The notes beneath the pieces were generated by a model that worked only from the letters and a program-made list of their open reading frames with translations, had not been told where the DNA came from and made no database searches. From the NCBI RefSeq assembly GCF_002735925.1, contig NZ_PEDL01000025.1, forward strand, positions 1 to 33,768: DNA of 33,768 nucleotides, given 5' to 3'. Of this stretch, positions 6,196-18,959 are shown piece by piece. Position numbers and translations under genes: made by a program. The DNA comes from Sporanaerobium hydrogeniformans. GTDB lineage: Bacteria; Bacillota; Clostridia; Lachnospirales; Cellulosilyticaceae. The stretch's first letter is position 1; the number at the start of each line of letters is the position of its first letter.

Positions 6196-6954
6196 CTAAT
6201 ACTCAGGAAATGCCGAATAAATTTGAAATGGACGTCGATTCGTCCCTAAAAAGCTCGTACAGTATGTATCGAGCTTTTTATATTGCGCAGAATTAATGGT
6301 AATCTTTCCATTTATAATACTAAAGTAGTCTTGTTCCTGCAGTTTGCTTAAATGACGATACAGGCTACGTAAATTGATATGTAACAGATGACTCATTGTT
6401 TTACGACTAACTGTTAGAGTAAAAGGAAAAGAAGAACTATTGCAGCTATTAAATAGATAGAGAAGTATTGTATCGTCCAAATTATAAAGAGCACGTATCT
6501 CTGCCATATCCATATAATACTGAGAAACATTAGCGAAATAAGAAATACAGACATTAGCCACTGTAAGATTATTATGCATAGCATGAAAGAAGAGATTAGC
6601 AGGGACTTCAATAATGATGGATGCTTTGATTGTTCTTATAGAAGCAGTATATTTAGGTACATTTAGAATATATTCAAGCAAGCCAAAAATATAAGGTGAT
6701 AACATAGTATCTGCCACGATACTATCTCCAAATACAGAGTTGATAAGGCAGTGATAAGTACCACTGAGAGCAATATAGACGGTATTTGCATCATTTCCCA
6801 TTGTAAGAAATTCGGTATTCGGTTTTAGCTTTCGGAGCTTACAAAGTGGGGCGCAAGTAGATGGATTTATTTCTTCAATATCATCAGCAGTTATAGACTC
6901 TTTTGAGAATAATTTTAATACTTTGCATAGATAGTTATCATAATTATTGGGCAT
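6196..6954 (-). CDS. Crp/Fnr-family-like transcriptional regulator
   Basis: This is a 252-residue putative DNA-binding regulator. Residues of about 35-130 look like a cyclic-nucleotide-binding-type beta-barrel (TVYIALSGTYHCLI, then DTMLSPYIFGLLEYI). A long dimer helix follows at about 135-170, and a winged helix-turn-helix at about 180-235 (VSRKTMSHLLHINLRSLYRHLSKLQEQ, split here by no gap but diverged from Crp). The cAMP phosphate-binding RxS motif of Crp is not apparent, so the ligand is probably something else. GGAGG precedes the ATG. It is divergent from the nucleoside operon, with a perfect palindrome just downstream of its own promoter, which suggests autorepression and control of the operon. 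Its last 20 codons contain the shared terminator hairpin. Confidence 0.75.
   Translation of the reverse strand: MPNNYDNYLCKVLKLFSKESITADDIEEINPSTCAPLCKLRKLKPNTEFLTMGNDANTVYIALSGTYHCLINSVFGDSIVADTMLSPYIFGLLEYILNVPKYTASIRTIKASIIIEVPANLFFHAMHNNLTVANVCISYFANVSQYYMDMAEIRALYNLDDTILLYLFNSCNSSSFPFTLTVSRKTMSHLLHINLRSLYRHLSKLQEQDYFSIINGKITINSAQYKKLDTYCTSFLGTNRRPFQIYSAFPEY
6248..6284 (+). terminator. Hairpin terminator shared by convergent genes
   Basis: AAAAAGCTCG (6248-6257) and CGAGCTTTTT (6270-6279) form a perfect 10-bp stem with a 12-base loop, with a U-run on either strand. It should end the chemoreceptor transcript. It lies inside the last codons of the convergent regulator gene. Confidence 0.75.
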
Positions 6955-6982: not shown

Positions 6983-6997
6983 ACAAGTGTCACTTGT
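6983..6997. promoter_or_regulatory. Palindromic operator candidate between regulator and nucleoside operon
   Basis: ACAAGTG-T-CACTTGT is a perfect 7+1+7 palindrome. It lies 15 bases past the -10 box of the minus-strand promoter, so a bound dimer would block the regulator gene. The size and symmetry suit a Crp/Fnr-type dimer, but the bases differ from the Crp (TGTGA) and Fnr (TTGAT) half-sites. Confidence 0.6.
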
Positions 6998-7120: not shown

Positions 7121-8194
7121 TTGTTACCAAGAGATAGAGTAATAAAAGCTTTAGCTCATGAAAGAACAGATCGAGTTCCTTTAGATTTCTGGGCAACTCC
7201 TGAAACTTGGAAAAATTTAAAGACTTATTTTAATACCAATGAAGAGGAAGAGATCCTACGTAAACTTCAAGTGGATATTCGCCAAGTTCAACCTGATTAT
7301 ATTGGACCTAAGATAGTAAAAGAGGAAGATGGAACCTATTTTGATGCAATGGGAGTTCATAGAAGAGTAATAAAAAATGAGTTCTGTGAGTATGAGGAAT
7401 ATGCAAGCGCACCTTTAGGTTTTGTACAGTCAGTGGAAGACTTTGAAAGATACAATAAGTGGCCTAATATTTCAAATTATGATTTTAAAGGTTTAAAGAA
7501 TAAAATCGGTCCTATAAATGAGACCTATTATATCAAGCTAGAGACAGGAGGGTTATTTGAATTTGCTTGGGCGCTTCGCGGGTATGAACAATTTATGATG
7601 GATATGATTTTGGAACCTGATATTGTTCATTTCATTATGAATAAGATAACTGAATTTTGGTGTGATTATGTAAGAGAAGCTATGGAACAAGCTGGAGATA
7701 AGTATGATATGGTGTATACCTATGATGATATTGCTGCTCAAAACTCACTTCTCATGTCAAAAGAAATGTGGGCAGAATTTATAAAGCCTTATCACGAGAG
7801 ATTAAATCAGGTAATTCATTCCTATGGTAAGACAATCATGTATCACTCATGTGGAGCCGTTTATGATATGATAGAAGATTTAAAAAAACTGCCCATTGAT
7901 GTTTTAAATCCTATTCAGCCAAGAGCAAAGGGAATGGACATGAAGGAAATAAAGAAGCATTTTAAAGATGTTCTTTCTTTTCATGGAGGCATAGATATTC
8001 AATTTGTCTTACCTAAAGGAACGAAAGAAGAAGTAGATGCTGCTGTACGACATGCAATTGATACTCTCGGTGAGGGAGGGGGCTATATATTAACAAGTGC
8101 GCACTATATTCAAGCGGATACGCCTGTAGAAAATATAGTAGAGATGTATAAAGAAGCAAGAGAGTACTCTCAAAATAAAAACTTAGAAAAATAG
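7121..8194 (+). CDS. Uroporphyrinogen decarboxylase (URO-D) family enzyme
   Basis: This is a cytoplasmic TIM-barrel protein of about 358 residues in the URO-D/MtaA superfamily, which covers haem biosynthetic decarboxylases and cobalamin-dependent methyltransferases. It opens with the family-typical RDRVIKALAHERTDRVPLDF. It has a YHSCG segment (about residue 240) resembling the His-x-Cys zinc ligands of MtaA-type methyltransferases, then SFHGGIDIQ and GGGYILTSAHYIQADTP. The third zinc Cys of methyltransferases is not evident, as the corresponding segment reads TSAHYIQ. The context is not a haem operon, so classic HemE activity is unlikely. A GTG at 7115 abuts the AAGGAGGGG site; the TTG at 7121 has better spacing, so I start there. 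It is the first gene of the nucleoside island. Substrate and reaction are unknown. Confidence 0.8.
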   Translation: MLPRDRVIKALAHERTDRVPLDFWATPETWKNLKTYFNTNEEEEILRKLQVDIRQVQPDYIGPKIVKEEDGTYFDAMGVHRRVIKNEFCEYEEYASAPLGFVQSVEDFERYNKWPNISNYDFKGLKNKIGPINETYYIKLETGGLFEFAWALRGYEQFMMDMILEPDIVHFIMNKITEFWCDYVREAMEQAGDKYDMVYTYDDIAAQNSLLMSKEMWAEFIKPYHERLNQVIHSYGKTIMYHSCGAVYDMIEDLKKLPIDVLNPIQPRAKGMDMKEIKKHFKDVLSFHGGIDIQFVLPKGTKEEVDAAVRHAIDTLGEGGGYILTSAHYIQADTPVENIVEMYKEAREYSQNKNLEK

Positions 8195-8203
8195 GAGAAG
8201 GCA

Positions 8204-9142
8204 ATGGCAAAACAGAAACTTATTATAGACACAGATTGTGGATCAGATGATGCAATGGCAATAGCCATGGCACTTAACGATCCTAACTTTGAGATTCTCT
8301 TTTTTACAACTGTCTCAGGTAATGTAGATGCAAAGAGAGCTGCTTATAACACACTTATGACAATAGAACATGCGGGGACCTATCAGCCGCCAGTGTACAT
8401 AGGATGTAACCAAGCTTTATTAAGGGATATGGTATTTGCCCATGAGACTCATGGACTTGATGGAATGGGAGATATAGGGCTTAAAGTAAAGAGTCTAGAG
8501 GTAACACCAGGGAATGGGGTTTTAAAGATCTTAGAAGCTTTAGATACACATGAAGCTGGAGAAATAGAGATTATTACGCTTGGTACACTAACAAACATAG
8601 CATTAGCTATGCGTTTGGAACCAGATATTATGAGGAAGGTAAAAAGAATTGTAGCTATGGGAACAGCGGGGCTTGGTACTGGTAATGTATCACCTGTAGC
8701 AGAATTTAATATATGGCAGGATGCAGAAGCTGCAAAAATAGTCAATGACTTTGGAGTACCCCTTATGTATGTAGGGTGGGATGCTTGTTTAGAAGATGCG
8801 ATGCTAAACGAGGAGGAAATTAATCGCATTAGAGAGAGTGGAGAATTAGGGAAATTTACTATTGATTGTAACAAACGCCTTATGGAGATGAATAGGGAAC
8901 GCTTTGGAGCACTTTACTTAGATATGGCAGATCCAGCAGCGATGGCAGCAGCACTTTATCCAGAATGTATAGAGGAATGTGATCATTATTTCTGTGAGGT
9001 AGATGTTTCAAATGGACCGAGCTATGGAAGTGTATTAGTTGATAAATATCATTTTAGTGGGAAAGAGCCTAATGCCTATATTTGTAGTAAGTTAAAAGCC
9101 AATCTTTACAAAGAATACATATATAAAACACTGGGGGCATAG
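8204..9142 (+). CDS. Nucleoside hydrolase family protein (IU-NH type)
   Basis: This 312-residue enzyme of the inosine-uridine nucleoside hydrolase family would cleave the N-glycosidic bond of a ribonucleoside to base and ribose. The N-terminal calcium motif is present as DTDCGSDDA (residues 9-17; usually DTDPGxDDA). EFNIW at 167-171 supplies the ribose-contacting Asn. The C-terminal calcium Asp is D243 in MADPAAMA. The family's usual His in this motif (HDP), which protonates the leaving base in the purine/pyrimidine enzymes, is replaced by Ala242, so the base specificity is probably unusual. It starts 9 bases after the previous stop, with GGAGAAGG upstream, and is clearly in the same operon. 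Family is certain; substrate is not. Confidence 0.88.
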   Translation: MAKQKLIIDTDCGSDDAMAIAMALNDPNFEILFFTTVSGNVDAKRAAYNTLMTIEHAGTYQPPVYIGCNQALLRDMVFAHETHGLDGMGDIGLKVKSLEVTPGNGVLKILEALDTHEAGEIEIITLGTLTNIALAMRLEPDIMRKVKRIVAMGTAGLGTGNVSPVAEFNIWQDAEAAKIVNDFGVPLMYVGWDACLEDAMLNEEEINRIRESGELGKFTIDCNKRLMEMNRERFGALYLDMADPAAMAAALYPECIEECDHYFCEVDVSNGPSYGSVLVDKYHFSGKEPNAYICSKLKANLYKEYIYKTLGA

Positions 9143-9145
9143 TTA

Positions 9146-9706
9146 TTGAAAAAGATAATACTCGTTAGTCATTGTATTTTAAATACGGCATCTAAGGTTG
9201 TTATGTACAATTTAAAGGAAATAGAAGAGGAGGAGGCATTAAGAAAACAGTTTGTAAAAACAGCATTAGATAGAGGGATACAGCTTTTACAACTTCCCTG
9301 TCCAGAATTTACATTATATGGCTCTAAAAGGTGGGGACATGTAAGTGAACAATTTGATAATGTATTTTTCAAAAAACATTGTAGAAATATTTTATTACCC
9401 ATTATAGAACAGTTAGTAGAGTATAAAGAGAACAAAGAAAGATTTCAAATACTAGGGATTGTAGGAATAGACGGAAGTCCTAGCTGTGGAGTGGATTATA
9501 CTTGCACAGGAGAAAAGAGCTATGGTGCATTAGGAGATAGAGATGAATCCATTATGGAAGTTATTCATAACACCTCACTTTGCAAAAGGAAGGGCATATT
9601 TTTTCAAGTATTAGAAGAGATGTTGGTAGAATTTAAGCTTGCGGATATTAAAGTAGAAGGTCTCTTTGCATTAGAACCCCATAAATGTATGAATTTATTA
9701 AGTTAA
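9146..9706 (+). CDS. TudS-related putative desulfidase
   Basis: This small cytoplasmic protein of 186 residues resembles DUF523/TudS, the family of thiouracil desulfidase, which removes sulfur from 2- or 4-thiouracil with a [4Fe-4S] cluster held by three Cys. Three Cys sit at the expected places: C10 in VSHCILN, C52 in LPCPEF and C114 in DGSPSCGVDYT. From memory, NCBI names a CD3072 family of TudS-related proteins that fits this variant (SHCILN where TudS has a CLLG-like segment); I could not check this. The start is TTG, 3 bases after the previous stop, with GGGGG as a weak ribosome site. Next to a nucleoside hydrolase, a phosphorylase and an ECF importer, desulfurisation of a thiolated base or nucleoside is a reasonable inference. 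Confidence 0.75.
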   Translation: MKKIILVSHCILNTASKVVMYNLKEIEEEEALRKQFVKTALDRGIQLLQLPCPEFTLYGSKRWGHVSEQFDNVFFKKHCRNILLPIIEQLVEYKENKERFQILGIVGIDGSPSCGVDYTCTGEKSYGALGDRDESIMEVIHNTSLCKRKGIFFQVLEEMLVEFKLADIKVEGLFALEPHKCMNLLS

Positions 9707-9764
9707 CGCAGTGTTAACTAATAAAGTATAAAAAAATAACAGGATACAGCAGTAAGAGCTGCTG
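9701..9764 (+). promoter_or_regulatory. Two inverted repeats between desulfidase and ECF S-component genes
   Basis: AGTTAAC (9701-9707) and GTTAACT (9713-9719) form a perfect 7-bp inverted repeat spanning the desulfidase stop codon. CAGCAG (9747-9752) and CTGCTG (9759-9764) form a second hairpin just before the AGGAGGG of the S-component gene. Neither has a U-run. They may stabilise the mRNA segment or be an operator. Confidence 0.35.
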
Positions 9765-9786
9765 CTAAAAACAGGAGGGAAATAAT

Positions 9787-10401
9787 ATGGAGAAAAGACA
9801 TTCAATTAAGGACGATTTTTCAATGTTAGCGTTACTTATTATACCGATTGCAGTTGCAGTAAACTTTGTCGGTGGGCAATTAGCATCTTTATTAAAGCTT
9901 CCGTTTTATTTAGACACTATAGGAACTATTTTTGCAGCCATGCTCTGTGGGCCATGGGTAGGGGCGGTAGCAGGTACATTAACCAATATTGTAACGGGTA
10001 TTGCCAACCCAGTAAACTTTGCATTTATCCCAGTTAACTTACTGGTAGGCTTAGTGACAGGTTTCTTATCTAGAAAAAATATGTTTAGTGTGTGGTGGAA
10101 ATGGATTATTGCAATGGTATTAATGGCTCTAACCTCTATTATTTCTGCAGCGCCTATTGTTGTACTAGTATTTGGAGGTATTACAGGCGGGGGTACATCA
10201 CTTATCACGGCAACAGCAATGGCAGCAGGAGCAAACATTTGGGCAGCGGTGCTTGGAACAGAAGGTGTTTTTACAGTAGTTGACCGAATCATTTCTTTCT
10301 TTATTGGCTATTTTGTTATTAAGGTTATCCCAGCAAGAACCCTTGTTAAGTTTGGGTGTGGAGGTAACTACATAAGAAAGGATAACTCAACATCTATTTA
10401 A
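9787..10401 (+). CDS. ECF transporter substrate-binding (S) component
   Basis: This 204-residue integral membrane protein has about six hydrophobic helices, a short basic cytoplasmic N-terminus and a basic tail. Small-residue-rich segments (GPWVGAVAGTLTNIVTGIAN, then FIPVNLLVGLVTGFLS) are typical of ECF S components, which bind the substrate outside and topple in the membrane on the T/A module. It resembles a group I recall NCBI naming the CD3073 family of putative S components, the C. difficile neighbour of CD3072; this is memory only. The dedicated T and two A genes follow, making a group I (single-substrate) ECF importer. Substrate is not known; the surrounding enzymes point to a nucleoside or nucleobase. 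An AGGAGGG site precedes the ATG. Confidence 0.82.
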   Translation: MEKRHSIKDDFSMLALLIIPIAVAVNFVGGQLASLLKLPFYLDTIGTIFAAMLCGPWVGAVAGTLTNIVTGIANPVNFAFIPVNLLVGLVTGFLSRKNMFSVWWKWIIAMVLMALTSIISAAPIVVLVFGGITGGGTSLITATAMAAGANIWAAVLGTEGVFTVVDRIISFFIGYFVIKVIPARTLVKFGCGGNYIRKDNSTSI

Positions 10402-10414
10402 AACAGAGGAATAT

Positions 10415-10456
10415 ACCGCTACTTACTTAGATAATAATAGGTAGCGGTTATTTTAT
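10415..10456 (+). terminator. Intercistronic terminator-like hairpin between ECF S and T genes
   Basis: ACCGCTAC (10415-10422) and GTAGCGGT (10441-10448) form a perfect 8-bp stem with an 18-base loop, followed by TATTTTAT. The imperfect U-run suggests partial termination or an mRNA stabiliser, which would leave more S component than T/A module. Confidence 0.5.
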
Positions 10457-10481
10457 AAGCAACTAGAGGAGGTTACATACG

Positions 10482-11273
10482 ATGTGGAGAGAGAAGCTTA
10501 GCATTAAAAAGGATAATGCCATTGCAGCATTGTATCCATCAGCTAAATTTTTAATTGTGTGCCTCTATTCTTTTTGTTCCCTAATCATTGGAACAATCAA
10601 AATAGAAGGTTATCCATTCTTTTTAATTCCTTGGTTTTTAATAGTCCCTATACTCTGTGCAGCAAGTGGAGTTTGGAAAAACTTTATAAAGGCATTTAAT
10701 AAAGTCTTATTTATAGCGGTTATTATTTTTGTGGTGCAGAGCTTGTTTGTTCCTAGCGAAACAATAATTTGGCAAATAGGTTTTATAAAGGTATATGAGG
10801 CTGGATTACAAAGTGCAATTGTACTTTCTTTTTCTATTATGAATATCGCTGGAATGTTTATATGGATGTTCCAAACAACAGAAAACAAGGAAATTTCTAG
10901 AGCTTTAGAGGACTCTGGTATGAACTATAAGGTGGCCTACGTATTTATTAGTACCTTACAGATGATAGAGGTGCTTGGAAAAAGTAGTAAGACCATTATG
11001 AATGCTCAGCAAGCACGTGGCGTAGAAACAGAAGGTAATATATTTATCCGAAGTAAAGCCTTTTTTCCATCTATGGTGCCTTTGATTTTAGGAGCTATTA
11101 CAAATACGGAAGAGAGAGTCCTTACATTAGAATCAAAAGGTTTTGATGTAAAGTGTAAAAAAACACATCTTTTTGAAATAGAAAAGTCAGGCAAGGAAAA
11201 ATTAGCAGCGGTAATAGCCATTTTAATTACCACTTTAGTGATTATAGGGAGGGTCTTAGCATGGGTATTGTAA
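10482..11273 (+). CDS. ecfT: ECF transporter transmembrane (T) component
   Basis: This is the EcfT-type scaffold protein, 263 residues, with about five membrane helices in two groups and the long cytoplasmic coupling helices between them. The coupling region carries NAQQARGVETEG (about residues 174-185) and TLESKGFDV; the first holds the ARG/ARS-type motif that docks into the ATPases. It should sit in the cytoplasmic membrane and join the S component to the two ATPases encoded next. GAGGAGG precedes the ATG. Its last codons overlap the first ATPase gene by 13 bases, which indicates coupled translation. Confidence 0.88.
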   Translation: MWREKLSIKKDNAIAALYPSAKFLIVCLYSFCSLIIGTIKIEGYPFFLIPWFLIVPILCAASGVWKNFIKAFNKVLFIAVIIFVVQSLFVPSETIIWQIGFIKVYEAGLQSAIVLSFSIMNIAGMFIWMFQTTENKEISRALEDSGMNYKVAYVFISTLQMIEVLGKSSKTIMNAQQARGVETEGNIFIRSKAFFPSMVPLILGAITNTEERVLTLESKGFDVKCKKTHLFEIEKSGKEKLAAVIAILITTLVIIGRVLAWVL

Positions 11274-12121
11274 TTGAATTTAAGGACGTATCCTATAGTT
11301 ATCCGTTAACCAAGGAACCATCTATTAAAAATTTGAATTGTAAGTTAGAAAAAGGAAAATTTTATGGAGTTATTGGGAAAAACGGTTCAGGTAAGACTAC
11401 CTTATGTACCCTTATAAGAGGGTTTGCACCTAGCTTTTACCAAGGTGTACTAGAGGGGCAAGTTTTGATTGAGGGCAAACCCACAGTAGATCATGGACCA
11501 GGTGAGTTATCACTAAAAATAGGCTATGTCTTTCAAAACCCCTTTAATCAAATTAGTGGGGTGAAAGAAACAGTATTTGAAGAGGTTGCCTTTGGACTAG
11601 AGAACTTTGGAGTTCCCGTTGATGAGATAGAGCGAAGAGTAATAGAGGTTATGGAGCTTACCAAAATCAGCCATATTGCAGAAAAGAATCCATTTGAGTT
11701 ATCAGGAGGTCAGCAACAAAGGGTTGCATTAGCATCTATTATTGTTTTAAAACCAGATATTTTAGTTATAGATGAACCAACATCTCAATTAGATCCTGAG
11801 GGAACAGAAAGTGTTTTTGAAATTATTGATGCTTTAAAGAGAGAGAAGAAAACGATTATTTTAGTAGAGCATAAAATAGATTTAATTGCTGAATATGCAG
11901 ATGATGTCATGGTTCTCGATAATGGAGAAATGATTCGTTTTGGACCCAAGCAAGCTATTTTAAGTGACATGTCTTTATTAGAACATGGTATTCAGCTCCC
12001 ACAAATGGCGATTTTAGGGAATGAATTAGTAAAACAGGGTGTTAAGTTAGATTATATTCCAATTACAGAAAAGCAAGCAAAAGAAGTGATTGGAAGAACA
12101 CTAAGAAAGGAGAGCGTATAA
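11261..12121 (+). CDS. ecfA: ECF transporter ATPase A
   Basis: This is a cytosolic ABC ATPase of 286 residues in the CbiO/EcfA family, with all motifs intact: Walker A GKNGSGKTT (about residue 39), Q-loop FQNPFNQI, signature LSGGQQQR, Walker B LVIDEPTSQLD and switch His in VEHKID. It should power the ECF importer as a heterodimer with the next gene product. A C-terminal extension of about 60 residues follows the nucleotide-binding core. The start lies inside the T-component gene, and one base separates its stop from the second ATPase. Confidence 0.9.
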   Translation: MGIVIEFKDVSYSYPLTKEPSIKNLNCKLEKGKFYGVIGKNGSGKTTLCTLIRGFAPSFYQGVLEGQVLIEGKPTVDHGPGELSLKIGYVFQNPFNQISGVKETVFEEVAFGLENFGVPVDEIERRVIEVMELTKISHIAEKNPFELSGGQQQRVALASIIVLKPDILVIDEPTSQLDPEGTESVFEIIDALKREKKTIILVEHKIDLIAEYADDVMVLDNGEMIRFGPKQAILSDMSLLEHGIQLPQMAILGNELVKQGVKLDYIPITEKQAKEVIGRTLRKESV

Positions 12122-12122
12122 A

Positions 12123-12929
12123 ATGGCACATGTCTCTCTGAAGGATGTTACCTTTGCTTATCCCAATGGTTTTGTAGCAATTGATCATATTAATATTGAA
12201 ATAGAAAAAGGTGAAAACGTAGCTATTGTTGGACAAAATGGAGCAGGAAAAACAACAACTGTTAAAATGTGTAATGGCCTTTTAAGACCTACAAAAGGCG
12301 ATGTGAAGATAGGTGATATGAATACTAAAGATTATACAACTGCACAAGTGTCTAGAAAGGTAGGGTATGTTTTCCAAAATCCAGATGACCAAATTTTTCA
12401 TTCCTCTGTATATGATGAAGTTGTGTTTGGTCCTAAAATGATGAAGCTTGCCAATGAAAAAGTAGAAAAACAAGTGGACTATGCACTAAAGATAACAGGA
12501 ATGGATGTTTTTAAAAACGAGAACCCCTATAATTTACCTCTTTCAACAAGGAAGTTTATAACAATAGCAGCTATTATAGCAATGGATACAGAGGTGATGA
12601 TTTTTGATGAGCCTACAGCAGGGCAGGACTTGGAAGGCAATAGACGGTTGTCGGCTATTTTAAAAGAATTACATCATCAAGGCAAGACAGTTATTACTAT
12701 TTCACATGATATGGAATTCGTTGTTTCTAACTTTGAACGTGTTATCGTAATGGCAAATAAAAAGGTAGTTACGAGTGGCCCACCTAAAAAAATATTTTGG
12801 GATTTTCCAGCCCTAGAGGAAGCCATGCTTAAACAACCGTATATTTCTCAGCTTTGCAATAGTTTAAATCTAGGTGAGGGAATCATTCATTTAGAAGAAG
12901 CTGTAAAAGCAATTAAGGATAGGAGTTAA
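12123..12929 (+). CDS. ecfA2: ECF transporter ATPase A' with degenerate signature motif
   Basis: This is the second EcfA-type ATPase, 268 residues. Walker A (GQNGAGKTT, about residue 38), Q-loop FQNPDDQI, Walker B MIFDEPTAGQD and switch His in ISHDME are intact. Where LSGGQ should stand, before the Walker B block, the sequence reads LPLSTRKFITIA, so the signature is degenerate. In the A/A' heterodimer one of the two ATP sites would therefore pair a normal Walker A with a non-canonical signature. The frame is otherwise perfect, so this is not decay. The ATG is 1 base after the previous stop, and the GGAG of the upstream gene end serves as ribosome site. Confidence 0.88.
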   Translation: MAHVSLKDVTFAYPNGFVAIDHINIEIEKGENVAIVGQNGAGKTTTVKMCNGLLRPTKGDVKIGDMNTKDYTTAQVSRKVGYVFQNPDDQIFHSSVYDEVVFGPKMMKLANEKVEKQVDYALKITGMDVFKNENPYNLPLSTRKFITIAAIIAMDTEVMIFDEPTAGQDLEGNRRLSAILKELHHQGKTVITISHDMEFVVSNFERVIVMANKKVVTSGPPKKIFWDFPALEEAMLKQPYISQLCNSLNLGEGIIHLEEAVKAIKDRS

Positions 12930-12939
12930 TACTAAAAAT

Positions 12940-14115
12940 ATGAATAGAAGGCGTAATATTGCTGCATTTGTAGCTTATGCAATGTATCTTTTAACAGGAG
13001 CTGCTTGTGTAGTGATAGGTAGTAGCATTCCGCAACTAATGACACATTTTAATAAAGATCTTCCCACAATTGCCATTTTGGCATCTGCCTTTGCAATAGG
13101 AAGGGTTGCGACTGTTTTTCCAGTAGGAGTAATGACGGAAAAGGTAGGAGTAAAAATAACCATTACAATGGGAGTACTCTTTTTTCTAGCATTTTTGATA
13201 GGTATTCCACTCACAACCAGTTATGGTATAGCAATAGTCTTATCTGCTATAGCAGGGGTGGGGATGAGTACACAAGATACTTGTTGTGCTGTAATTTTAA
13301 GAGAAGCTTTTCCTGAAAGTTACAGTAGTTCGTTAAGTGCAGGGCAAGCATTTTTTAGTATAGGTTGTTTTTTGTCACCGATGTTAATGGCCATTGCCCT
13401 AGCCAATGAAGTGGATTTTACAGTGGTTTATTTTATGGTAGCATTAGTAGGTTTTACTATGCTCTTAGCCATTCCTTTTATGAAAATAACAAAAGATATA
13501 CATATAGAAGAAGTTTCAGAAAATAAAGAGGTAGAACCTGTAAAATTGAAGAACAAAAAATGGGGGTATGCTTTTTTGGGTATCGCATGCTTTACCTATT
13601 TTGGTGCAACAAATACAATACATACTTATACTGCAACTTTTGTAGAAAGTTTTGGCATATCAGAGAGTATTTCTGTATCTATCTTAACGGTATATAGTAT
13701 AGGGTGTATGGCGGGTTCTTTTTTCTTTATTCCTGTTTTAAGAAAGGTTCATGAAACCCATGTGTTATGGATAAATATGTTATGTGCATTTGTAAGTTTA
13801 AGTATAGCGATGTTATGTAAAACAACAGTCATCTTTTTTATCATGTATTTTGTTGCAGGCTTCTTTTGTGGTGTACTGTTCTCTGTACTAGTGTCTATTG
13901 CAGTTAGTTTAAAGCCACTACATGCAGGTATTGCAGCAGCAACCATAGGATTTGTAGGTGGGATTGCTGATATACTATCACCCCTATTAACAGGAGCAAT
14001 TATTAGTGTTACAAATATTCAATCTACTTTTTATTACTGTATAACCATGTGTGTGTTGTGTATTGCATCTGCATGGGGATATCGTATGATGTACAGAAGG
14101 GAGCTAGATAAATGA
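12940..14115 (+). CDS. MFS transporter
   Basis: This major facilitator superfamily membrane protein of 391 residues has about twelve hydrophobic helices in two halves joined by a charged loop (about residues 185-210, rich in E and K). The GRVATVFPVGVMTEKVGVK segment in the loop after helix 2 is a divergent form of the MFS motif A. Nothing in the sequence fixes the substrate or direction. It stands between the ECF ATPases and the phosphorylase gene and overlaps the latter by ATGA, so it belongs to the operon. Export of a by-product base, or a second import route for the same nucleoside, are equal options. Confidence 0.85.
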   Translation: MNRRRNIAAFVAYAMYLLTGAACVVIGSSIPQLMTHFNKDLPTIAILASAFAIGRVATVFPVGVMTEKVGVKITITMGVLFFLAFLIGIPLTTSYGIAIVLSAIAGVGMSTQDTCCAVILREAFPESYSSSLSAGQAFFSIGCFLSPMLMAIALANEVDFTVVYFMVALVGFTMLLAIPFMKITKDIHIEEVSENKEVEPVKLKNKKWGYAFLGIACFTYFGATNTIHTYTATFVESFGISESISVSILTVYSIGCMAGSFFFIPVLRKVHETHVLWINMLCAFVSLSIAMLCKTTVIFFIMYFVAGFFCGVLFSVLVSIAVSLKPLHAGIAAATIGFVGGIADILSPLLTGAIISVTNIQSTFYYCITMCVLCIASAWGYRMMYRRELDK

Positions 14116-14852
14116 TGAAAGTAAAAGAAGTATTGAATGAGAAAGGTGAACAGTATCATATTTGCTGTAAACCTGGAGACGTTGGAAGATATGTATTATT
14201 ACCCGGAGACCCATTTAGAACGGATTTGATTGCAAGCTATCTTGAGGATGCAAAGCTAGTTGCACACAATAGGGAGCATAAAACTTGGACGGGTACCTTA
14301 AATGGAGTAAAGGTAAGCGTAACATCAACAGGAATGGGCTGCCCATCTATGGCAATTGCTTTAGAAGAACTTATTCACTGTGGTGCAGATACTTTTATTA
14401 GAATTGGAACAGCAGGACATGTATGTGAGGCGTCTTGGGATGAAAGCTTAGATGGCGTTATATGTACTGGAGCAGTGAGAGATGAAGGGACAACCATCCA
14501 TTATATGCCTATTGAGTATCCTGCCATTGCAGATAGGCATATTGTAGCAGCTTTAGCTGATGCCGCAAGAGCAGCTGGGTTAAACTATGCAGAGGGGATT
14601 GTCCAAAGCAAGGATAGCTTTTATGGACAACATGACCCAGATGGCTTACCTAATGGTAAACGATTAAAGGAACGGTGGGAAGCGTGGTGTCAAGGTAATG
14701 TAATGGCTAGTGAAATGGAGACTGCTGCTCTTTTTGTCATATCATCTATTAGGGGATGCCGTGCAGGAGCTATTATGAGCTTTAAAAATATGAAAGAAAC
14801 TATAGGTATTGCATGTGAGGCTTTAACAACCCTAATGAAAATAGACGGATAG
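14112..14852 (+). CDS. Nucleoside phosphorylase, uridine phosphorylase-like
   Basis: This 246-residue enzyme of the PNP/UDP (NP-I) family would catalyse phosphorolysis of a nucleoside to base and ribose-1-phosphate. The phosphate-binding loop LLPGDPFRTDLIA (about residues 28-40), TSTGMGCPSMAIALEEL, RIGTAG and the ribose-contacting SEMETAALF are all present, and the ensemble looks more like Udp than purine phosphorylase. The segment VQSKDSFYGQHDP corresponds to the base-side region of Udp. It is the last gene of the operon: the start overlaps the MFS stop, and a strong terminator lies 14 bases after the stop. Having both a hydrolase and a phosphorylase in one operon suggests two nucleosides or two steps. 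Confidence 0.85.
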   Translation: MMKVKEVLNEKGEQYHICCKPGDVGRYVLLPGDPFRTDLIASYLEDAKLVAHNREHKTWTGTLNGVKVSVTSTGMGCPSMAIALEELIHCGADTFIRIGTAGHVCEASWDESLDGVICTGAVRDEGTTIHYMPIEYPAIADRHIVAALADAARAAGLNYAEGIVQSKDSFYGQHDPDGLPNGKRLKERWEAWCQGNVMASEMETAALFVISSIRGCRAGAIMSFKNMKETIGIACEALTTLMKIDG

Positions 14853-14865
14853 AATAAAGTCAAAG

Positions 14866-14946
14866 AACATTTATGTCATTTCCTTGAAAATGGTGTTTTA
14901 ATAGCCAGGTTAAGTAATGTCCAAGGAAAACATAAATGTTTTTTGT
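14866..14946 (+). terminator. Strong terminator ending the nucleoside operon
   Basis: AACATTTATG (14866-14875) pairs with CATAAATGTT (14931-14940), and TTTCCTTG (14879-14886) with CAAGGAAA (14922-14929). The nested stem is followed by TTTTGTTTTG. Confidence 0.85.
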
Positions 14947-14974
14947 TTTGCTTAAAAGGATGAGATATAAGTGC

Positions 14975-15003
14975 TTGCTCAATATATTTGAAGGTATTAG
15001 AAT
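14975..15003 (+). promoter_or_regulatory. Promoter of the ribokinase-like gene
   Basis: TTGCTC (14975-14980) and TAGAAT (14998-15003) have 17-base spacing, giving a predicted start near 15010 and a leader of about 55 bases. Its place after the operon terminator supports separate transcription of the kinase. Confidence 0.55.
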
Positions 15004-15064
15004 GAAATTATCTGTAAGGCAATTAAAGTATGTGTAAAAATAAAAAATAATGAGGGGGATGTCA

Positions 15065-15982
15065 ATGAAAGTCTTAAATTTTGGCTCTTTGAATATTGAT
15101 TATGTATATAAAGTAGACCATATGATACGAGAAGGTGAAACGCTATCATCAAGTGGTATGGAAGTTTTTTTAGGAGGGAAGGGATTTAATCAGTCGGTGG
15201 CATTGGTAAAAGCAGGGGTACCTGTTTACCATGCAGGGATGATAGGAGAAGAAGGAAAAATTTTCTTAGATGCGTGTGAAGAGTACGGCATATCTTCTAA
15301 GTTTATAAAGACAATCGAAGGGAAAAATGGACATACCATTATACAAGTTGATAAAAATGGTCAAAACTGCATTATGCTGTATGGTGGAAGCAATCGTTCT
15401 TTAACAAAGGATTTTATTGATGAGGTGCTCTCATACTTTGGAGAAGAAGATTACATACTTTTGCAAAATGAAGTGAATCATTTGGATTATATCATTGAGA
15501 AAGCTTATGAGCGTGGTATTAAAATTGTTTTAAATCCTTCCCCATTAGACTCCTATTTAGAGACTTGTGATTTGAATAAAATTACTTATTTTATGATGAA
15601 TGAAATTGAAGGGGAGCAGATTACCGGAGAAAAGGAAGCCAATAAGATATTAGATAAAATGATGCAAATGTATCCAGAGTCTAAGGTGATATTAACACTT
15701 GGTTCAGCAGGTTCGTTATATCAAGATAAGGAGAATTTTTTTGAACAAGGTATTTTCAAAACAAAAGTAGTAGATACAACTGCGGCAGGGGATACTTTTA
15801 CAGGTTATTTTGTATCTGCCATTATCAGTGGAAAGAGCATTCCAGATGCTTTAAAGATGAGTGCAATGGCAGCTTCGATTACAGTATCGAGAGAAGGGGC
15901 ATCTCCATCGATTCCAACCTTAGATGAAGTAAAGGAAAAATTAAATACACATGAGCTAGGTAAGCTTGAAATCTTGAGGTAG
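15065..15982 (+). CDS. PfkB-family sugar kinase, ribokinase-like
   Basis: This cytoplasmic kinase of 305 residues has the ribokinase layout: NFGSLNIDYVYKVD at the N-terminus, the sugar-binding GGKGFNQSVAL at about residue 38, ILNPSP-like VLNPSPL in mid-protein, and the PfkB signature 2 DTTAAGDTFTGYF near residue 235 with the catalytic Asp in AAGD. Ribokinase usually reads DTTGAGD. Ribose released by the upstream nucleoside hydrolase is an obvious candidate substrate, but a nucleoside kinase role cannot be excluded. Three in-frame ATGs occur (15050, 15059, 15065); GAGGGGG at 15052-15058 leaves a 6-base gap only to the third. Its last 27 bases overlap the convergent AraC-type gene. Confidence 0.85.
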   Translation: MKVLNFGSLNIDYVYKVDHMIREGETLSSSGMEVFLGGKGFNQSVALVKAGVPVYHAGMIGEEGKIFLDACEEYGISSKFIKTIEGKNGHTIIQVDKNGQNCIMLYGGSNRSLTKDFIDEVLSYFGEEDYILLQNEVNHLDYIIEKAYERGIKIVLNPSPLDSYLETCDLNKITYFMMNEIEGEQITGEKEANKILDKMMQMYPESKVILTLGSAGSLYQDKENFFEQGIFKTKVVDTTAAGDTFTGYFVSAIISGKSIPDALKMSAMAASITVSREGASPSIPTLDEVKEKLNTHELGKLEILR

Positions 15983-16843
15983 CTTGTGCTGCTCTCTAAA
16001 TTCCTTAGGGGAGAGACCATACTCTTTTTTGAAAGCACGATAAAAGCTTGTGTAATCCTTAAAACCATATTGATGGTAGATTTGATTAAGAGGCATACCT
16101 GACAAGATACTGTTTTTACTAGCATGAATACGTTTTTTTAAGATATATTGATACAGTGAAATGCCCATATTATCTTTGAAAATATGGGAAATGTGATATT
16201 TACTAGCAAAAAAGAAATCTGCAAGGGTATCTAGTCCTAAATCTTCACCTAAATGGCTATTGATATAATCACAAATATTTAAATAGAGTGCATTGCCATG
16301 AGAAGGTGAAACCTGATGAAGCATATTGTAGGTCATACGGTTAAGCAGTATTAAAAAGGTACATAAAAGAAGCTGAATATGCACTTCATGAAAAGGATGG
16401 TGCCCCCTTGTATCTTCTAAGAGTTGTAATAAGGCACCTTGAATTTGTTGATGAGAAATATAATCCAGTCGAAAATGATAGTTCTCGCTTTCAGAAACAT
16501 AGTTAAAGCTATAAGCAAAATCTTTGGACTTCTGGCAAAGCGTGTCCAGATAAGATTTACTTATCCAGAGTATAAGTCGACGATAAGGGGTATCATAAGA
16601 GTTGAAAATAGGATGATGAGGTTTACCAGGTGGGATAAGTAAGTAATCACCAAATTGTAAGTTGTAAGTTTTTTGTTCTATTTTATAAGTAATATCACCC
16701 TCTATAAAAAAATAAATTTCATAGTAGTCATGGGTATGAGGGGAAACATGTTGGAGAGTTGCGTCGTTATAATAAAAAATCTCAAAGTCAGAAGACTTCA
16801 TATATTGCCTAGTATCAAACTCGGTATATAAATCTTTTTTCAT
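15956..16843 (-). CDS. AraC-family transcriptional regulator
   Basis: This 295-residue regulator has an N-terminal cupin-type sensor (about residues 20-90, with HVSPHTHDYYEIYFFIEGDI split over a typical His-rich beta strand pair, and FGDYLLIPPGKPH). The C-terminal domain carries two helix-turn-helix motifs (about residues 190-290: LDTLADFFFASKYHISHIFK, then IYHQYGFKDYTSFYRAFKKE). The family binds direct repeats as two phased contacts and usually activates sugar genes. It is divergent from the uronate genes, and the spacer carries a matching repeat pair that overlaps this gene's own -35. It therefore probably activates uxuA and controls itself in response to a uronate or related sugar. A weak TAGC-type ribosome site precedes the ATG; the start is supported by the family's N-terminal length. 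Confidence 0.88.
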   Translation of the reverse strand: MKKDLYTEFDTRQYMKSSDFEIFYYNDATLQHVSPHTHDYYEIYFFIEGDITYKIEQKTYNLQFGDYLLIPPGKPHHPIFNSYDTPYRRLILWISKSYLDTLCQKSKDFAYSFNYVSESENYHFRLDYISHQQIQGALLQLLEDTRGHHPFHEVHIQLLLCTFLILLNRMTYNMLHQVSPSHGNALYLNICDYINSHLGEDLGLDTLADFFFASKYHISHIFKDNMGISLYQYILKKRIHASKNSILSGMPLNQIYHQYGFKDYTSFYRAFKKEYGLSPKEFREQHKLPQDFKLT

Positions 16844-17036: not shown

Positions 17037-18086
17037 ATGAAATTATCATTTAGATGGTATGGTGAAGACGATAAGGTAACTTTACAAAACATTAGACAAA
17101 TCCCAGGTATGAACTCTATTGTAACAGCTGTATATGATGTACCAGTAGGTGAAGTATGGAGTAGAGAGAGTATTGCTAGACTTAAACAATTAGTTGAAGA
17201 AAATGGATTAGCTTTTGATGTCATTGAAAGTGTACCAGTTCATGAAGATATTAAACTTGGTAAACCATCAAGAGATAAGTACATTGCAAACTACTGTGAA
17301 AATATTAGACGTTTAGGGGAAGCGGGCGTTAAATGTATTTGTTATAACTTCATGCCAGTATTTGACTGGACACGTACACAACTTGACCACGTATTACCAG
17401 ATGGCTCTACTTCTTTAGTTTACTACCAAGAACAAGTAGATGCAGTAAACCCATTAGAAAGTGATAGTGACTTAACTCTTCCAGGTTGGGATTCAAGCTA
17501 TACAAGAGATGAGCTTAAAGCAGTAGTAGCTGAGTACAATGCTATGACAGAAGATGACCTTTGGGATAACTTAAAATATTTCTTAGAAGCCATTATCCCA
17601 GTTGCGGCAGAATGCAATATCAATATGGCGATTCATGAAGATGATCCATGCTGGAGTATCTTTGGTCTTCCAAGAATCATTACCTGTGAAGAAAACCTTG
17701 ACCGTTTCTTAAAACTTGTAGATGATAGTCACAATGGTATTACACTTTGTACAGGTTCTTTAGGTTGTTCAAATAAGAATGATGTTGTAAAAATGGCAGC
17801 TAAATATGCAGCTATGGGGAGAATTCACTTCGTACACATGAGAAATGTAGCTGTTCTTGAAAACGGATTTGAAGAAAGAGCACACTTATCAAGCTGTGGT
17901 TCTTTAGATATGTTTGCCATTATGAAAGCTTTACATGACAATGGCTTTAAAGGCTATGTAAGACCAGATCACGGACGTATGATTTGGGGTGAAACAGGTC
18001 GTGCAGGTTATGGATTATACGATAGAGCATTAGGTGCAACTTATCTTAATGGTTTATGGGAAGCTATTGAAAAAATGAGCAAATAA
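17037..18086 (+). CDS. uxuA: Mannonate dehydratase
   Basis: This 349-residue cytoplasmic enzyme of the UxuA family dehydrates D-mannonate to 2-keto-3-deoxygluconate in the hexuronate pathway. The N-terminus [19 protein letters not shown], the [15 protein letters not shown] block, [13 protein letters not shown] and the metal-binding [15 protein letters not shown] and RPDHGR segments are all family hallmarks with the expected His, Cys and Asp ligands. Its length equals the family's usual size (about 350-360). GGAGG precedes the ATG. It is the first gene of a two-gene operon with an SDR oxidoreductase, under the AraC-type control region. The likely source of substrate is glucuronate side chains of xylan. 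Confidence 0.95.
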
Positions 18087-18110
18087 TGACTAAAGAAAGA
18101 GGTAAATAAG

Positions 18111-18959
18111 ATGAGTTTAGCATTTGGAACAGATTTAAATGGGAAAGTAGCTGTTGTAACAGGCGCTGGTGGTGTTCTTTGTGGTATGTTCGCAAAAACC
18201 CTTGCTAAATCAGGTGCAAAGGTAGCTGTACTTGACCTTAACGAAGAAGCAGCAGAAAGTGTAGCAAAAGAAATTGTAGCAGAAGGCGGCGTAGCAAAAG
18301 CTTACAAAGCTAACGTATTAGATAAAACAAACCTTGAAGAAGTACATGCAAAAGTACTCGTAGACTTAGGACCATGTGACCTTTTATTAAACGGTGCAGG
18401 TGGTAACAATCCTCGTGCAACAACAACTAAAGAATACTTTGAAATGGGCGATATTGAAGCAGATACTATTTCCTTCTTTGATTTAGATCAAGCAGGTGTA
18501 GAATTTGTATTTAACTTAAACTTCATTGGAACACTTCTTCCCTCACAAGTTTTTGCAAAAGATATGATCGGAAGAGAAGGCTGTAACATTATCAATGTTT
18601 CTTCTATGAATGCTTACACACCACTTACAAAGATTCCAGCATACAGTGGTGCTAAAGCAGCCATCAGTAACTTTACGCAATGGTTAGCAGTTCACTTCTC
18701 AAAGGTAGGTATTCGTGTAAATGCCATTGCACCAGGTTTCTTTGTAACCAAGCAAAATGAAAAACTTTTATTTAATGAAGACGGCAGCCCAACTGCTCGT
18801 TCACAAAAAATCTTAAATGCAACACCAATGGGACGTTATGGTGAAGCAGAAGAATTAAACGGTGCATTATTATTCCTTGCTAATAACGATGCAGCAGGTT
18901 TCGTAACAGGTGTTGTTATCCCAGTAGATGGCGGTTTCTCTGCTTACTCTGGTGTATAA
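18111..18959 (+). CDS. SDR-family D-mannonate/fructuronate oxidoreductase
   Basis: This short-chain dehydrogenase of 282 residues has an N-terminal NAD(P)-binding motif TGAGGVLCGMFA (about residue 18; classic TGxxxGxG), NGAGG (about 97), catalytic Ser in INVSSMNAY, and YxxxK as YSGAK. The C-terminal VIPVDGGFSAYSG is typical. It resembles the SDR that replaces UxuB in Bacillus-type hexuronate operons (YjmF) and would reduce fructuronate to mannonate, supplying the preceding enzyme. It starts 24 bases after uxuA with AGAGGT upstream, and the operon ends in a hairpin terminator 30 bases after the stop. The pathway role rests on the pairing with uxuA; the family is certain. Confidence 0.88.
   Translation: MSLAFGTDLNGKVAVVTGAGGVLCGMFAKTLAKSGAKVAVLDLNEEAAESVAKEIVAEGGVAKAYKANVLDKTNLEEVHAKVLVDLGPCDLLLNGAGGNNPRATTTKEYFEMGDIEADTISFFDLDQAGVEFVFNLNFIGTLLPSQVFAKDMIGREGCNIINVSSMNAYTPLTKIPAYSGAKAAISNFTQWLAVHFSKVGIRVNAIAPGFFVTKQNEKLLFNEDGSPTARSQKILNATPMGRYGEAEELNGALLFLANNDAAGFVTGVVIPVDGGFSAYSGV

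Follow-up and report, generated by a model that had tools for sequence, protein, structure and literature searches.

RNA turnover frees many modified nucleosides, and to our knowledge little is known about their uptake and breakdown by bacteria. Transporters of the energy-coupling factor (ECF) class are known mainly for vitamins and metals, and the paired NCBIfam names CD3072 and CD3073 already imply that one kind of ECF S component keeps company with a protein related to TudS. TudS is itself a desulfidase of 4-thiouridine and 4-thio-UMP (PF04463; PMC10611767). Here, we analyzed a 33,768-nucleotide stretch of the Sporanaerobium hydrogeniformans genome (contig NZ_PEDL01000025.1, positions 1 to 33,768, forward strand; hereafter "the window") in which an operon joins genes for a UROD-like enzyme, a nucleoside hydrolase, a TudS-related desulfidase, an ECF importer, a major facilitator superfamily (MFS) transporter and a uridine-phosphorylase-like enzyme, with a PfkB-family kinase gene next to it (Table 1). 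A note made earlier from the sequence of this window (the original prediction) had named this gene set and read it as salvage of a modified, perhaps thiolated, nucleoside; all of the named genes were recovered on the strands it gave. We propose, with a probability of roughly 55%, that the operon is a module for scavenging a nucleoside, probably a sulfur-modified one. Import and cleavage of a nucleoside by this operon are well supported by comparative context, and a thiolated substrate is plausible, with moderate support.

The link to nucleosides is carried by the genes found near relatives of the S component. Using a profile of 12 S components (E 1e-20), we searched 398 genomes of the phylum and found 41 places in 38 genomes, 14 of them strong (window included) and 27 second-tier. 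A gene counted as a neighbor if it was at most 6 kb away, had the same orientation and matched at E 1e-8; at several of the related loci discussed below, neighbor names were read by eye from the sequence unless a family search is stated. A nucleoside hydrolase or uridine-phosphorylase-like gene was near 15 of the 27 second-tier S places, representing 12 genera, as compared with 1 of the 15 S genes in the TudS-linked group described below, where the neighbor was a hydrolase match (Fisher p 0.0024). Among 19 control neighborhoods, 11 centered on TudS-related genes without an S gene and 8 centered on UROD genes, none contained either enzyme; relaxing the threshold to E 1e-5 brought up a single weak match (24.7 bits) to the hydrolase, in control L095. 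The link between S components and nucleoside enzymes is not circular, since neither hydrolase nor phosphorylase served as bait in the search for S genes. None of the 27 second-tier places had a TudS-related or UROD match nearby. Several of these places hold entire operons for nucleoside use. Gene order at locus L131 is LacI, PfkB, nucleoside hydrolase, S, T, two ATPases and uridine-phosphorylase-like gene, and L134 is much alike; at L135, a Crp-like regulator is followed by S, T, two ATPases, nucleoside hydrolase and PfkB. The PfkB genes of these three loci lie inside the operons, and L133 holds two modules in tandem. Operons of the S superclade at L132 (9610-11109) and L188 (1656-3008) also contain or adjoin amidohydrolase genes, possibly for base or nucleoside deaminases.

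By tree placement, the window S component falls in a clade that is sister to the CD3073-like group and linked to nucleoside-enzyme genes. In a tree built from 33 S proteins, which omits L137, L146 and L148 (S proteins longer than 300 amino acids) and the eight loci L182-L189, the window protein pairs with that of locus L089 at 100/99, and both sit inside a 16-row set (95/88) made up of nucleoside-linked or unlinked rows, with zero TudS-linked rows; the deeper forks of this tree are weak. The idea that this protein is the CD3073 equivalog had to be abandoned, as it scores 116.1 bits against NF045596 (CD3073; cut-off 180) and belongs to the sister clade. PF12822 and NF045596 were its only matches at 0.001, with no match to a queuine family, and ten S proteins scanned against NCBIfam returned CD3073, folate-family and ThiW names only. 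A search of solved structures with the S component as a single sequence gave nothing credible, and a profile search reached FolT-type chains (E 6.5e-7), making FolT the nearest solved S component.

The case for sulfur comes from the TudS-related protein, for which the original prediction had claimed kinship with TudS; this kinship is supported. In an excerpt of the TudS study, the roles described are those of the cluster cysteines, a catalytic Glu and Ser, Arg17 on the phosphate and Tyr18 stacked on the uracil ring (PMC10611767). Residues C10, C52, E54, S111, P112 and C114 of the window protein are the counterparts of C10, C43, E45, S101, P102 and C104 in TudS, by the residues given in that study and by a solved TudS chain, and all six are invariant across 22 aligned family members (an alignment omitting L040, L042, L049, L055, L061 and short-locus matches such as L034-L036). 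A profile of these 22 rows, compared with 14 TudS sequences (those of 31 TudS loci that passed a reading-frame filter), placed the motifs in register over 130 columns (E 1.1e-4, probability 56%); compared with a single TudS sequence, it aligned over the N-terminal 46 columns only. The window protein had no Pfam match at 0.001, PF04463 included, and this TudS model reached four other family members, one of them above its cut-off. His9 and Asn13 are specific to the TudS-related family as compared with TudS. The window protein has likely kept the [4Fe-4S] cluster chemistry, judging from its cluster and catalytic residues, and its substrate may differ from that of TudS. Searches of solved structures with the TudS-related protein, as a single sequence and as a profile, gave nothing credible. 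The host genome carries an ordinary TudS elsewhere. It also carries a second TudS-related paralogue (L038 9884-10489; G000:C1:77300-77764), which scores 113 bits, under the NF045597 cut-off, adjoins genes for a DAO-type flavin adenine dinucleotide (FAD) oxidoreductase and a spore photoproduct lyase, and has a close relative in L041.

TudS-related genes are themselves tied to S components. At E 0.001, 27 of the 398 genomes had a TudS-related match, 19 of them above the NF045597 cut-off, and an S component of the same superclade lay near the gene in 12 of these 19 (window included). Two genomes below the cut-off, together with one from the window's own family (L062) and with L037, raise the S genes outside the window to 15. 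All 15 of this TudS-linked group lie near a TudS-related gene, so the co-occurrence that the original prediction had proposed to check held for this pair; for the triple that adds the UROD-like gene it did not, the window being the only place where the triple was seen. At locus L043 (9399-13984), an S component and a TudS-related gene have HGD-D and TusA-like genes close by, a setting linked to sulfur or selenium.

The closest relative of the whole operon is L089, which holds UROD-like, uridine-phosphorylase-like, nucleoside hydrolase, MFS, S, T and two ATPase genes. Protein identity between the two islands is 64% for the UROD-like enzyme, 66% for the hydrolase, 68% for the S component and 49% for the phosphorylase-like enzyme. 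The L089 MFS gene has no recognizable homology to that of the window at E 1e-5, and the L089 regulator has a PF04198 sugar-binding domain, replacing the Crp-like one. When 22 TudS-related proteins were placed in a tree, the window protein paired with that of L037 at 100/98, and L037 carries a TudS-linked S component; L037 was also the one relative found when genome contigs were searched with the window desulfidase. Since the window S component goes with L089 and the window desulfidase with L037, the island appears to be composite: an L089-like core of the nucleoside type seems to be joined to a desulfidase gene whose relatives accompany CD3073-like S components. In the same tree, the S-linked label clustered no more than chance would predict, and TudS-related genes have therefore switched company often. 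The UROD-bearing island is rare in the genomes searched. A UROD query (E 1e-60) hit 13 of 291 genomes of the class, with only the window and L089 above 40% identity, and 1 of 11 genomes in the family of L089, namely L089 itself; a hydrolase profile at E 1e-85 hit only the window among the 398 phylum genomes.

The pathway that we propose would begin with uptake of the nucleoside by the ECF importer, as suggested by the conserved context of its S clade. The hydrolase, the phosphorylase-like enzyme or both, assigned at the family level, would then cut the glycosidic bond to give the base and ribose or ribose-1-phosphate. The TudS-related protein, with a predicted [4Fe-4S] cluster on C10, C52 and C114, would remove sulfur from the nucleoside or the freed base, and the PfkB kinase would phosphorylate ribose. 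The UROD-like enzyme may work on an additional substrate feature, and the MFS protein may transport a substrate or a product.

Several observations weigh against this proposal. The UROD-like enzyme is left unexplained, and two enzymes for the glycosidic bond are redundant in one operon. The counterparts of TudS Arg17 and Tyr18 are Lys and Val in the window protein. No TudS-related match was found in the L089 contig, which ends inside the second ATPase gene, or in its 71% complete genome; sulfur is therefore not needed for the core. These last two observations are what keep the thiolated substrate of the original prediction at plausible, while the modified-nucleoside salvage it proposed gained support for import and cleavage. 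An AlphaFold2 model of the TudS-related protein built from two sequences (window and L037) had a predicted local distance difference test (pLDDT) score of 61.3 and no Foldseek match at E 0.001 or better; TudS was absent among the best 50 of the 472 matches of this model. In the genome survey, 7 of the 19 above-cut-off TudS-related genes had no S gene nearby (the one in L057 sits near a contig end), 12 of the 27 second-tier S places had neither hydrolase nor phosphorylase (some contigs are short), and 5 of the 27 came from one genus and 3 of the 27 from one genome. TudS-related genes adjoin ATP-binding cassette (ABC) importers with family-3 solute-binding proteins in L045 (8449-10510), L046 (8192-10540) and L053 (9992-12078), where the substrate may be some other sulfur-bearing compound. 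Finally, no nucleoside kinase was recognized in the operon, and characterized TudS favors 4-thio-UMP over thiouracil and thiouridine (PMC10611767). For these two reasons, either cleavage or desulfurization may come first.

The strongest competing explanation, which we consider rather unlikely, is that the ECF importer scavenges a plain nucleoside such as uridine, cytidine or inosine, the TudS-related and UROD-like proteins having side jobs such as thiopyrimidine detoxification or being passengers. It would account well for the 27 second-tier S places, which do without both genes, and for the TudS-free L089 island. Against this, the TudS-related gene of the window sits between the hydrolase and S genes, 3 bases from its neighbor, and a UROD-like gene heads both islands even though their proteins are only 49-68% identical, which argues against a recent accident. 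The hydrolase and phosphorylase of the window also diverge from most of those compared, at positions whose functional roles we take to be as in the known enzymes. Near the C-terminus, the hydrolases of the window and L089 share Ala-Asp-Pro at a site that reads His-Asp or Asn-Asp-Pro in the four others compared, and both carry GWDACL in place of GLDVT; their specificity may be altered. The best NCBIfam match was RihA for the hydrolases of L131, L134, L135 and L145 and RihC for those of the window and L089, all under cut-off. Uridine phosphorylase was the best NCBIfam match for all ten phosphorylase-like proteins scanned and exceeded its cut-off in one. The L089 copy scores above this cut-off (TIGR01718, 309.4 bits), and the window copy falls below it (Table 1). 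A C-terminal stretch of the L089 phosphorylase is missing from the window copy and L133, and a basic residue in the base-binding loop of the L089 and L139 proteins is missing from the window, L131, L133 and L134. The L131 kinase passes the ribokinase model TIGR02152 at 360.1 bits; the window kinase falls short of it.

The position of the UROD-like gene as the first gene in both islands suggests that its product probably acts on the substrate. The original prediction had seen in this protein a hint of an extra modification such as a methyl group, and the substrate could be a methylated, methylthiolated or carboxymethylated nucleoside, from which the UROD-like enzyme would strip a one- or two-carbon group before the TudS-related protein removes sulfur. 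Relatives in the UROD superfamily are methyltransferases or decarboxylases, and three B12-binding matches were found elsewhere in the host genome; together with the leading position of the gene, these speak for such a substrate. A profile search with the UROD-like protein found MtaA as its only solved relative (as a single sequence, nothing reached threshold), and the protein retains the HxC of MtaA in an HSCG motif. The third MtaA cysteine, which we take to be a metal ligand like the HxC residues, is replaced by His, the Cys of HSCG is itself replaced by Asp in 3 of 7 close UROD relatives, and no corrinoid-protein gene was recognized in the island. The MtaA/CmuA models gave 54-76 bits against cut-offs of 235-400 (TIGR01463, 65 vs 235.4), far outside membership. 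With these points against it, we judge this substrate class improbable. The next UROD homologues in the 291 class genomes are 32-40% identical, and several of their neighborhoods resemble sugar degradation by eye. A structure model of the UROD-like protein from one sequence had a pLDDT of 36.4 and was not used.

It is more doubtful still that the TudS-related protein handles a non-nucleoside sulfur compound, its placement in a nucleoside operon being secondary. The ABC importers next to the gene in L045, L046 and L053 would fit, as would the HGD-D and TusA-like genes near it in L043, but the TudS-linked S group (15/15) is homologous to the nucleoside-linked S components and the window gene is placed between nucleoside genes. 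Least probable is queuosine salvage by a QueK-type hydrolase and a QueT/QrtT-type importer: in this system, too, an ECF S component goes together with a nucleoside hydrolase (PMC11130926), yet the window S component matches PF12822 and NF045596 and no queuine family, and uridine-phosphorylase-like and TudS-related enzymes fall outside the pathway as described in the excerpted account (PMC11130926).

Table 1. Genes and candidate control site of the island in the window, with the evidence for each assignment.
Feature	Position	Strand	Evidence
Crp/Fnr-like regulator, divergent	6196..6954	-	cNMP_binding 24.6 bits (cut-off 27.5), HTH_Crp_2 19.8 bits (cut-off 27)
Perfect 7-1-7 palindrome ACAAGTGTCACTTGT, 15 bp, candidate operator	6983..6997	.	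between Crp/Fnr-like gene and operon
URO-D-superfamily enzyme	7121..8194	+	PF01208 97.9 bits; TTG start after GGAGGGG
Nucleoside hydrolase	8204..9142	+	PF01156 252.6 bits; DTDCGSDDA motif retained
TudS-related desulfidase (predicted)	9146..9706	+	NF045597 167 bits (cut-off 130); C10, C52, C114, E54, S111
ECF S component, nucleoside-linked clade	9787..10401	+	PF12822 37 bits (cut-off 30.7); tree
ECF T component	10482..11273	+	PF02361 74.4 bits
ECF ATPase 1	11261..12121	+	own sequence and matches in other ECF operons
ECF ATPase 2	12123..12929	+	own sequence and matches in other ECF operons
MFS transporter	12940..14115	+	PF07690 122.7 bits
Uridine-phosphorylase-like enzyme	14112..14852	+	TIGR01718 239.5 bits, below cut-off 280.3; solved relative 3qpb
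PfkB-family ribokinase-like kinase	15065..15982	+	PF00294; TIGR02152 (ribokinase) 224.2 bits, below cut-off 299.65

On the plus strand of the window, nine genes lie at close spacing from 7121 to 14852 (gaps of -13 to 80 bases), with purine-rich ribosome sites at normal distance before most of them. The ECF set is complete, as genes for S, T and two ATPases lie side by side; both ATPases were assigned by similarity only, outside the family-library scan. The PfkB gene, for which 15065 (just past GAGGGGG) is a better start than 15050, is set off from this run by a 197-base gap and is perhaps a separate unit. Upstream, the Crp/Fnr-like protein probably governs the operon through the palindrome, a candidate operator; across the 3.74-Mb genome, ACAAGTGTCACTTGT has this single exact occurrence, and 1 other site differs from it by one mismatch. 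Between the S and T genes, a hairpin (ACCGCTAC...GTAGCGGT, 10415-10448) is followed by a T-rich stretch; its 18-base loop exceeds what the terminator scan permits, and it possibly tunes the ratio of S to T. Promoter-like sites were at chance level and terminator-like sites below chance, and Rfam gave no match at gathering thresholds. Past an AraC-type regulator gene (15956-16843), genes for a mannonate dehydratase (PF03786) and a short-chain dehydrogenase (17037-18959) form a separate sugar-acid unit.

The operon points to a little-studied recycling route for unusual RNA building blocks. A bolder reading, which we offer tentatively and with the balance of our judgment against it, is that an undescribed group of ECF-type importers handles nucleosides rather than vitamins and splits into two sister branches, the first taking up plain nucleosides or bases and the second thiolated ones, and that the window encodes an entire import-cleave-desulfurize pathway for a hypermodified RNA nucleoside, the UROD-like enzyme removing a second substituent. 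If the operon does import nucleosides through its ECF module, this would broaden the substrate range of the transporter class; the curated and unexplained CD3072/CD3073 family pair would gain a likely function, and a sulfur-removing branch of RNA recycling would become directly testable. The parts belong to known families; the literature searched gave no description of a clade of ECF S components linked to the degradation of nucleosides. Among the titles and abstract openings listed from open-license papers, no ECF nucleoside importer was described, which is weak evidence of absence, and nothing was found on CD3072, CD3073 or three CD630_307xx tags.

Compared with known systems, the island is closest to the CD3073/CD3072 pair (NF045596, NF045597), with which it shares an above-cut-off TudS-related protein and an adjoining, homologous S component. 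It departs from this pair in the clade and the sub-threshold NF045596 score of its own S component, and CD3073/CD3072-type places elsewhere are without UROD and phosphorylase genes and have a hydrolase match in just 1 of 15 cases. The TudS-related protein resembles TudS in having the three cluster cysteines, Glu and Ser in register, and differs from it in the missing Pfam match, the Lys and Val at Arg17 and Tyr18 and the family-specific His9 and Asn13. MtaA, a methylcobalamin:coenzyme M methyltransferase, shares the URO-D superfamily and HxC with the first gene of the island, whose third ligand position is His and which has no recognized corrinoid partner gene alongside. The hydrolase and phosphorylase-like enzyme match RihA/RihC and uridine phosphorylase at the family level and in the main motifs, while scoring under the NCBIfam equivalog cut-offs and carrying changed base-loop and His/Asn positions. 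Finally, the importer has the S, T and two ATPase components of ECF vitamin importers such as FolT, and unlike these, it is set in a context of nucleoside degradation, with no folate genes recognized nearby.

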